This document shows positions 50,312 through 51,814 of a DNA stretch of 64,000 nucleotides, one piece after another. The notes beneath the pieces are model-generated. The model was not told the origin of the DNA and searched no databases. It saw only the letters and a list, made by a program, of their open reading frames with translations. The position numbers were made by a program, and so were the translations under genes. The first letter of the stretch is position 1. The number at the start of each line of letters is the position of its first letter. The stretch is from NCBI RefSeq assembly GCF_014696105.1, contig NZ_JACJPO010000010.1, positions 62,001 to 126,000 of the forward strand, in the 5' to 3' direction. Origin of the DNA: Microcoleus sp. FACHB-1515 (GTDB taxonomy: Bacteria; Cyanobacteriota; Cyanobacteriia; Elainellales; Elainellaceae).

Positions 50312-50413
50312 CGAGTCTATCAACCCTTGAGGCTTTCGGCTAGCGGTGAATATCAGCGGCACAAGTGATCGAGTTGCAACCGTGTTTTGGTCATCACGAC
50401 TATGATATTTCAG

Positions 50414-50486
50414 CGGGAAGTGACGGGATCGAACCGCCGTCTCGCCGTCTTCAGCGGCACGTGAGCACCAGCTTCACCAACTTCCC
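50414..50486 (-). tRNA. tRNA-Phe (GAA)
   Basis: Acceptor GGGAAGT pairs with ACTTCCC. The D arm is GTGA/TCAC with GG in the loop; the anticodon arm GCCG CTGAAGA CGGC gives GAA; the T arm is GGCGG TTCGATC CCGTC. All arms are well formed. CCA is not encoded. It is the last gene of the leftward tRNA array. Confidence 0.85.
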
Positions 50487-50487
50487 T

Positions 50488-50573
50488 TGGCGGAGGACAG
50501 AGGAATCGAACCCCTAGTCCAAGAACTACCCTGGTTTTCAAGACCAGTTGCCGACCATTCAGCGGTGTCCTCC
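50488..50573 (-). tRNA. tRNA-Ser (UGA)
   Basis: Acceptor GGAGGAC/GTCCTCC; anticodon arm CTGGT CTTGAAA ACCAG gives TGA; a long variable arm and a normal T loop (GGGGTTCGATTCCTC) are present. CCA is encoded (TGG at 50488-50490 on the plus strand). Confidence 0.88.
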
Positions 50574-50576
50574 TAA

Positions 50577-50653
50577 TGGCGAGAACGGAGAGATTCAAAC
50601 TCTCAATCTTCGGTTTCGTAGACCGATATGTTATTCCGTTACACCACGTTCTC
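50577..50653 (-). tRNA. tRNA-Arg (ACG)
   Basis: Acceptor GAGAACG/CGTTCTC; anticodon arm TCGGT CTACGAA ACCGA gives ACG (read as inosine in bacteria); T arm GAGAG TTTGAAT CTCTC. CCA is encoded at 50577-50579. Confidence 0.88.
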
Positions 50654-50659
50654 ATTAGG

Positions 50660-50740
50660 CGGAGAGCAGTGGAATCGAACCACAATTGTTCATCCATCTG
50701 TTTAGCAAACAGCGTCGATCGCCCGATCGATTTACTCTCC
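50660..50740 (-). tRNA. tRNA-Ser (GCU)
   Basis: Acceptor GGAGAGT/GCTCTCC with one G-U pair; anticodon loop TTGCTAA in a CTGT/ACAG stem gives GCT; a longer variable region and T arm GTGG TTCGATT CCAC follow. CCA is not encoded (CCT instead). The D arm contains the CGATCG palindrome. Confidence 0.78.
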
Positions 50741-50753
50741 ATAATTGAACCGT

Positions 50754-50839
50754 TGGTAGGTCGGGCAGGAGTTGCACCTGCAACGCAAAGTGCGGCGGTT
50801 TTACAGACCGTTGCCCACGCTGACTAGGCGAGCCGACCT
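50754..50839 (-). tRNA. tRNA-Tyr (GUA), abnormal D and T loops
   Basis: Acceptor AGGTCGG/CCGACCT; anticodon arm ACGGT CTGTAAA ACCGC gives GTA; a long variable arm (CCGCACTTTGCG region) fits Tyr. The T loop is TGCAACT instead of TTCRANY and the D loop lacks the GG pair that normally contacts it. Discriminator A and CCA are encoded (50754-50757). Confidence 0.75.
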
Positions 50840-50869
50840 ATAGTTTTTTCTGCTTAAAAATGAGCCAGT

Positions 50870-50946
50870 TGGCAGTGCCGACGGGAATCGAACCCGCAAA
50901 CACAAGTTTGAAAGACTTGCGGCTTTACCAGTTTGCCTACGGCACC
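50870..50946 (-). tRNA. tRNA-Glu (UUC)
   Basis: Acceptor GGTGCCG/CGGCACT; D loop AAACTGGTAAA with GG; anticodon arm CAAGT CTTTCAA ACTTG gives TTC; T arm GCGGG TTCGATT CCCGT. CCA is encoded at 50870-50872. Gene order is in an otherwise unusual array, so it may be an extra copy. Confidence 0.85.
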
Positions 50947-51008
50947 AAACTTTGAAATTTCTGCTTTCAAGTTTCTACAGTGTGCAAGTTTGAAAAGCTG
51001 TTTTAGTC

Positions 51009-51085
51009 TGCGAACAGACAATAGGATTTGAACCTATAGAACCGATCGAAATCAGTTTTTACCAGTTTGTAAGCTTTCCGAATTG
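51009..51085 (-). tRNA. Degenerate tRNA-like gene (Glu- or Arg-like)
   Basis: A perfect T arm, ATAGG TTCAAAT CCTAT (51021-51037), and a D-loop segment CAAACTGGTAAAA shared with the tRNA-Glu copy are present. The anticodon arm ACTGA...TCGGT encloses only six bases, TTTCGA, so the anticodon is TTC or TCG depending on alignment. No 7-bp acceptor stem can be formed. It is probably a decaying tRNA gene; end points are approximate. Confidence 0.45.
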
Positions 51086-51100
51086 GGGCACACCATAGAA

Positions 51101-51171
51101 CGCACAGACCAGGATTTGAACCCGAACCAAAGGTTTTGGAGACCCTTGTGCTGCCGTTACACCATCTGTGC
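51101..51171 (-). tRNA. tRNA-Trp (CCA)
   Basis: Acceptor GCACAGA/TCTGTGC; D loop with CGGC; anticodon arm AGGGT CTCCAAA ACCTT gives CCA; T arm CGGG TTCAAAT CCTG. A 3' CCA is not encoded. Confidence 0.82.
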
Positions 51172-51215
51172 AGGAGTTGCGGAGTTTAGCTAACACAAAT
51201 GCAACCCGAAGTTGT

Positions 51216-51294
51216 TGGAGACGTGGGGAATTGAACCCCATCCTGCAACCGTCCGTTTGTTGGTTTCAGAAGCAGGTGATGCCATCGCGTCCCC
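51216..51294 (-). tRNA. tRNA-like gene with an enlarged anticodon loop (possible Gln CUG)
   Basis: The acceptor (GGGGACG/CGTCTCC) and T arm (TGGGG TTCAATT CCCCA) are good. Between them CCTGC pairs with GCAGG around 25 bases starting TTCTGAA, which by itself would be a normal anticodon loop with CTG. The remaining 18 bases (ACCAACAAACGGACGGTT) sit at its 3' side. The D arm is only about 11 nt and the variable region is nearly absent, so it may be nonfunctional. An alternative fold uses the extra bases as a long variable arm. Confidence 0.5.
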
Positions 51295-51299
51295 ACGAG

Positions 51300-51373
51300 C
51301 GAGGATGACAGGAATTGAACCTGTGACCATTTGTTTCGGAAACAAATGCTCTGTCCGTCTGAGCTACATCCTC
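51300..51373 (-). tRNA. tRNA-Arg (CCG)
   Basis: Acceptor GAGGATG/CATCCTC; D arm TAGCTCAGACGGACAGAGC; anticodon arm TTTGT TTCCGAA ACAAA gives CCG; T arm ACAGG TTCAATT CCTGT. CCA is not encoded. All arms are well formed. Confidence 0.9.
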
Positions 51374-51376
51374 AAT

Positions 51377-51453
51377 TGGAAGCCGCGACGAGAATTGCAC
51401 TCGCTTCTCTCTGGCTGAGAACCAGAGCGACTTTTCTAGTCGTCCACACGGCT
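51377..51453 (-). tRNA. tRNA-Glu-like (CUC), abnormal D and T loops
   Basis: Acceptor AGCCGTG/CGCGGCT; anticodon arm TCTGG TTCTCAG CCAGA gives CTC; T arm GCGAG TGCAATT CTCGT. The D arm CGACT AGAAA AGTCG has a 5-nt loop without GG, and the T loop has G at position 55. CCA is encoded (51377-51379). It is the first gene of the array. Confidence 0.65.
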
Positions 51454-51787: not shown

Positions 51788-51814
51788 GTAATACAATATG
51801 CTACATAGCGTCAA
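51788..51814 (-). promoter_or_regulatory. Possible promoter of the tRNA array
   Basis: On the minus strand TTGACG (51814-51809) and TATTAC (51793-51788) are separated by 15 bp, shorter than the usual 17. It lies 34 bp upstream of the leader ATG. Confidence 0.35.

Follow-up and report, generated by a model that had tools for sequence, protein, structure and literature searches.

The G18:Psi55 contact between D loop and T loop is, to our knowledge, treated as nearly universal in tRNA, and an array of tRNA genes in the cyanobacterium Microcoleus sp. FACHB-1515 raises the question of what to make of genes that have given it up. Two members of this array carry G instead of U at position 55 and lack the GG of the D loop, so are they broken genes, or do they encode tRNAs whose elbow is built in another way? 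The window analyzed here, a stretch of 64,000 nucleotides (contig NZ_JACJPO010000010.1, positions 62,001 to 126,000 of the forward strand), contains the following features of the array and of the two genes.

50413..51453, minus strand: long-array fragment, nine tRNAs found by ARAGORN and two degenerate tRNA-like stretches
51377..51453, minus strand: tRNA-Glu(CUC), first gene of the array fragment, with encoded CCA; supported by ARAGORN, by the family model and by compensatory stem changes in relatives
51393..51399, minus strand: Glu(CUC) T loop TGCAATT, with G55 at 51398 and C56 at 51397; UGC conserved in relatives
51436..51437, minus strand: A18-G19 of Glu(CUC), the AG column pair being invariant in alignment A1
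50754..50839, minus strand: tRNA-Tyr(GUA), with encoded CCA; supported by ARAGORN and by the Rfam tRNA model
50770..50776, minus strand: Tyr T loop TGCAACT, with G55 at 50775 and C56 at 50774
50820..50821, minus strand: A18-G19 of Tyr, in the register taken from GG-bearing relatives

Both genes were found where the original prediction had placed them, each on the minus strand with the T loop and the G55 ascribed to it, and the absence of GG from their D loops was confirmed as well. Both have the 7-base anticodon loop, the U33 and the selected stems of a tRNA cloverleaf. The accompanying claim that both sides of the elbow had been lost, however, proved to be wrong. When the Glu(CUC) copies are aligned, the D-loop columns matching 18-19 hold an invariant A-G, and the Tyr D loop (TAGTCAGCGTG) aligns to TACTGGTGTG of relative L064 in such a way that G18 is replaced by A and G19 stays, just as a Met D loop, AACAGCG, aligns to AACGGCG in relatives with G18 replaced by A and G19 in place. 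Because the aligned relatives give A18-G19 in this alignment-based register, G19-C56 appears to be kept and only the 18:55 pair to be changed, from G18:U55 to A18:G55. Instead of G18-G19 with U55-C56, the combination A18-G19 with G55-C56 is found in Glu(CUC), in Tyr and in 114 other unique genes. A complete loss of the contact between the D and T loops was ruled out by the register, in which G19 is retained. Covariance-model scoring, which had been proposed as a check, gave a divided answer: Tyr(GUA) reaches 31.2 bits with the Rfam tRNA model, barely above the cut-off of 29, and Glu(CUC) is not reported by this model even at E<=10; the latter gene is clearly found by ARAGORN and scores 100 bits with the family covariance model R1, among whose training sequences it was included. 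The silence of the Rfam tRNA model on Glu(CUC) is a warning that genuine array tRNAs can escape searches built around GG/TTC.

The array fragment reads Glu(CUC), Arg(CCG), Trp, Glu(UUC), Tyr, Ser(GCU), Arg(ACG), Ser(UGA), Phe, a gene order that is also that of Kovacikia and Nostoc plasmid arrays, and it shares with such long arrays the accumulation of many tRNA genes on one strand, in conserved order and on top of the housekeeping set. Three more array fragments are present in the genome (C4:79851-80762, C40:4709-6276 and C78:106198-106596), and the four together resemble a single ancestral long array that was broken up. A third G55 tRNA of this genome, an initiator-like Met(CAU) with the D loop AACAGCG and the T loop TGCAATT (C40:6130-6201), lies outside the window, and G55 occurs in none of the 43 tRNAs outside the genome's own arrays. 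Some decay does occur in the window array, since two of its stretches are degenerate: the ends of one (51213-51294) fit the Rfam tmRNA model at 40.2 bits, below the cut-off of 47, the other (51010-51097, between Trp and Glu(UUC)) has a normal T arm, and no isoacceptor could be matched to either.

Plasmids of Kovacikia, Nostoc, Tolypothrix and Calothrix carry relatives of the array, and further ones were collected via the promoter pattern within the same order, via a Glu(CUC) covariance model in 386 genomes of the phylum and, in about 85,000 species genomes, via a Glu(CUC) D-arm pattern. About 100 array loci contributed the 1,689 unique tRNAs of the covariation sample. Non-cyanobacterial loci matching the D-arm pattern in the species genomes were non-tRNA chance matches with one exception, a contig titled Gracilibacteria that bears a cyanobacterial-type array, and about 126 tRNAs taken from sampled loci of phage, Paenibacillus, Bifidobacterium and Pasteurella all lacked G55. 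Within the sampled material, the matched 18:55 exchange is evidently limited to cyanobacterial array tRNAs. A phage origin of the variant was considered as well and rejected, the Glu(CUC) D-arm pattern giving chance matches only in viral contigs.

The relation between the two positions is close. G55 is carried by 120 of the 1,689 unique array tRNAs and is accompanied by A18-G19 in 116 of them, by G18-G19 in one (L232) and by something other than AG or GG in three, whereas the 1,543 tRNAs with U55 (UUC T loops) have G18-G19 in 1,526 cases, A18-G19 in seven and other combinations in 10. When the anticodon CUC is left out of the G55 set, 37 tRNAs with A18-G19 stand against a single one with G18-G19. 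The change at position 55 is also directional: in array tRNAs with U54 and A58 this nucleotide is U in 1559, G in 117, C in 1 and A in 1, G making up 117 of 119 cases other than U. In general, the commoner mutation is from U to C. The original prediction had named random change in homologues as the finding that would speak against it, and had proposed looking for the same pair in other cyanobacterial arrays; the pair was found there, and the array relatives show matched changes. That the G55 genes are superfluous tRNA genes in random decay is therefore highly improbable: the window array does have its two degenerate stretches, and interrupted or truncated genes occur in some relatives, but the changes are matched, directional and recurrent, and the stems of Glu(CUC) covary. 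Decay has been refuted for the G55 tRNAs taken together, while single members may still be decaying.

On a tree from which position 55 and the D loop had been left out, the G55 state undergoes at least 21 changes, a number that is only approximate because the tree rests on 48 columns, and about 11 of 12 independent contrasts are concordant, with none opposite (p about 0.001). The families concerned are Glu(CUC), initiator-like Met, elongator Met, Tyr, Cys, Gly(UCC) and Phe, to which two Gln(CUG) copies and one copy with a Glu(UUC) anticodon, all resembling Glu(CUC), can be added. Some variants are very close to a normal counterpart: the Phe genes of L210 and L119 differ at four positions, 18 and 55 among them, and near-minimal pairs are also formed by Met of L155 and L234 (five differences) and by Gly of L170 and L063 (seven differences). 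Taken together, the gene comparisons firmly indicate that the 18:55 exchange arose repeatedly, as a matched pair, in supernumerary tRNAs of cyanobacterial long arrays of the TrcR type. Since at least seven tRNA families have changed in a matched way, the comparison supports and strengthens the prediction that the elbow is a consistent alternative and not a result of random decay, and because the matched substitute evolved repeatedly, the two odd genes of the window are best regarded as maintained variants and not as broken tRNAs. The variant arms might instead have spread among array genes by gene conversion, through recombination and not repeated mutation, as the array genes are adjacent and alike and the Glu(CUC) D arm is common to some of the Gln(CUG) and Glu(UUC)-anticodon copies; we consider this unlikely, in view of T stems that differ among families and of near-minimal pairs that represent in-place single-base changes. 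Gene conversion would in any case alter the number of events and not the structural conclusion, because both sides must still match.

It is in Glu(CUC), usually the second gene of the array among relatives, that the exchange is nearly fixed. All true tRNA matches of a pattern covering only the D arm, truncated copies included, have the UGC T loop. An exception found by another route (L135) combines U55 with an AT-rich D loop that lacks AG; L134 and L175 also have Glu(CUC) genes with U55, which seem to be tRNAs of another kind. The stems of Glu(CUC) are 100% paired across all cells of the alignment, with six pairs altered on both sides (11 sequences), and a divergent subgroup has the D stem GGC/GCC instead of GAC/GTC. 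The window gene could form an alternative, longer D stem. The discriminator base varies (U in 43, C in 28 and G in 1), and since it is variable and the D stem is short, the charging identity of Glu(CUC) is uncertain.

The 18:55 pair is not the only elbow contact that has been exchanged. Contrary to the assumption that all other members of the window array have the normal pair, one of them departs from it at 19:56.

50577..50653, minus strand: tRNA-Arg(ACG), G18-A19 with the T loop TTTGAAT; A19 at 50635 and U56 at 50597

The replacement of G19:C56 by A19:U56 is also seen elsewhere in Arg and Cys array tRNAs (L116, L117, L181, L247 and L251), and a housekeeping tRNA of the same genome, Arg(UCU) at C32:155236-155311, has A19:U56 as well. 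Both inter-loop contacts thus change in a matched way, as predicted by selection on a docked elbow.

How could an elbow with A18 and G55 be held together? In normal tRNA, residue 18 is intercalated between nucleotides 57 and 58 and touches Psi55 (PMC4810234; PMC7912444), and G19-C56 forms the surface read by the ribosome, RNase P and T-boxes (PMC4810234). In T-loops of other RNAs, an incoming adenosine forms a trans sugar-edge/Hoogsteen pair with the G in position 2 of the loop (PMC11363276); A90 and A38 enter the gap of the UGAAA loops of the FMN riboswitch (PMC3764141), and a GNR triloop closed by U-A is often found in riboswitch T-loops (PMC2258182). By sequence, the variant tRNAs match such UGNRA-type T-loops, with UGCRA in 117 and A18 in 116 of the 120, and the fit of A18 with UGCAA to the class of UGNRA loops with an intercalated A suggests the geometry of the tRNA elbow. 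The likeness to the L2/L6 and L3/L5 T-loops of the FMN riboswitch consists in the U-G-N-R-A loop and in an adenosine that could enter the gap separating positions 4 and 5, although the riboswitch T-loops are not tRNA elbows and the geometry of the array tRNAs is deduced from sequence alone. Compared with the canonical elbow (G18:Psi55, G19:C56), the variant keeps G19-C56, U54-A58, R57 and the cloverleaf, and differs from it in having A18:G55 for G18:Psi55 and no substrate base for TruB or TrmH. The sequences show that G18 has changed to A and U55 to G as a matched pair, with G19-C56 and U54-A58 retained; according to the mechanism proposed here, A18 would be intercalated between R57 and A58 and paired with G55 in place of the G18:Psi55 contact, and the L shape would consequently be held without Psi55 (TruB) or Gm18 (TrmH). 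The constraint on 18:55 may have been relaxed enough to admit one-sided intermediates, the elbow itself presumably remaining under selection. TruB is encoded in the genome, and as G55 and A18 cannot become Psi55 and Gm18, the A18/G55 tRNAs lie outside its reach.

Clues to the role of these tRNAs come from the promoter of the array, the elements of which precede the first gene.

51788..51805, minus strand: TrcR-type operator TGTAGCATATTGTATTAC, the genome's single match to the pattern
51809..51814, minus strand: -35 element TTGACG of the array promoter, assigned by sequence resemblance, with the layout seen at C4, C40 and C78
51719..51754, minus strand: possible leader ORF MNDSLNDRCHA after AAGGAG, as read from the sequence

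Because the pattern was partly drawn from the window, independent support for the promoter comes from its matches in relatives and in other arrays. The C4, C40 and C78 arrays (L031-L033) have TTGACA followed by tandem TGTAGTAT boxes, a Shine-Dalgarno sequence and a short ORF, and all four arrays of the genome share the layout of -35 element, tandem TrcR-type boxes, Shine-Dalgarno sequence and leader ORF, the leader peptides being different. The leader ORF could sense translation. In the C2, C40 and C78 arrays, a TGAACCTTGA element lies between the leader ORF and the tRNAs. Promoters closely like that of the window occur in L142 (G016:C99), where a decayed tRNA-like sequence follows, and in L140 (G015:C59), which runs to the end of its contig. 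Besides the operator-type sites at all four arrays, an exact TrcR auto-operator precedes a 109-aa ORF at C20:73495, the candidate trcR, whose identity rests on the operator and on resemblance because its ribbon-helix-helix (RHH) match in Pfam is weak. The operator sequences used here come from the account of the Anabaena trn operon (PMC10272220), according to which this operon of 26 tRNA genes on the delta plasmid of Anabaena sp. PCC 7120 is repressed by TrcR and induced by translation-targeting antibiotics. Like the Microcoleus array, it lines up many supernumerary tRNAs behind a promoter with TGTAGTAT-type TrcR boxes, and its Nostoc plasmid relatives have the gene order of the window array; the Microcoleus array, in contrast, is in four fragments, and the accessible part of the Anabaena paper makes no mention of an elbow variant.

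We think it likely, from the genes and their promoters, that the A18/G55 genes are maintained alternative-elbow tRNA genes, putatively independent of Psi55 and Gm18, within a stress-inducible translational reserve, i.e., reserve tRNAs for translation that would be produced once translational stress lifts repression by TrcR. As to what the exchange is good for, if it is an adaptation and not neutral compensation, a modification-independent A18:G55 elbow might keep the reserve set functional while Psi55/Gm18 modification or the housekeeping tRNAs are impaired, or let it evade an elbow-reading tRNase, which can be offered as a tentative suggestion and on the whole a doubtful one. It is rather unlikely that the exchange is an adaptation for hiding, by which the reserve tRNAs would escape a tRNase, a toxin or a modification-dependent step that reads the normal elbow and would survive an attack on the housekeeping tRNAs. 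Hiding would agree with a directional and recurrent change, with a TruB that is present yet cannot convert G55, and with operons of this type staying silent until translational stress (PMC10272220), but most array members keep G18:U55 and the elbow-reading agent would be a hypothetical one.

A role outside normal translation, raised in the original prediction, would mean that the G55/A18 tRNAs are diverted to serve as amino-acid donors to a non-ribosomal reaction or as regulatory RNAs, their altered elbow keeping them off the ribosome and EF-Tu. In the cell-wall tRNA-Gly of Staphylococcus, the T loop has UGC for UUC and the D loop lacks GG. The array variants share these features, but they retain G19, belong to several amino acids and have no cell-wall link; against a reference whose features are partly taken from general knowledge, namely the loss of both D-loop Gs and Gly identity, the window genes show a kept G19 and Glu and Tyr anticodons. 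The existence of a non-proteinogenic tRNA-Gly dedicated to such use in S. aureus (PMC9976931) and a Glu(CUC) that is almost fixed as a variant, with a non-constant discriminator, would favor diversion, against which stand the retention of G19-C56 and the spread of the exchange over at least seven isoacceptor families of otherwise ordinary sequence. Diversion is therefore very unlikely, and the suggested role outside translation found no support: ordinary isoacceptors are involved, some of them 4-5 bases away from a normal sibling, and the operon is of the translational-stress type (PMC10272220).

Understood as a maintained elbow variant, the recurrent matched swap from G18:U55 to A18:G55 amounts to a natural, ready-made double-mutant experiment, which tells the protected part of the elbow (G19-C56 and a purine at 18) from the exchangeable part. 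The A18/G55 tRNAs should fold without TruB and TrmH, making the purpose of Psi55 directly testable. No paper naming both A18 and G55 for tRNA loops was found in a search whose scope lay outside the subscription literature (e.g., suppressor-tRNA selections on D and T loops).

Some further peculiarities of the arrays deserve mention. Many of them have an HNH endonuclease gene immediately upstream (L064-L076, L113, L137, L143 and L145), and in several relatives the HNH gene and a short ORF are preceded by TrcR-type boxes; the HNH gene is absent from the window. A short insert, GTACC..TTCG..GGAAGCAAGCTAC, is found in the T loop at L071:5185, L112:4310, L115:4867, L123:4913 and L124:3954, and these inserts, similar across different isoacceptors, resemble a small dispersed mobile repeat. 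Several Nostoc arrays, finally, contain a gene with the anticodon CUA (L064:4414, L074:4098, L076:4099, L183, L184 and L191), a possible amber suppressor, which sits between Trp or Met and Glu(UUC) or Tyr, at a place occupied by CUU in other arrays.
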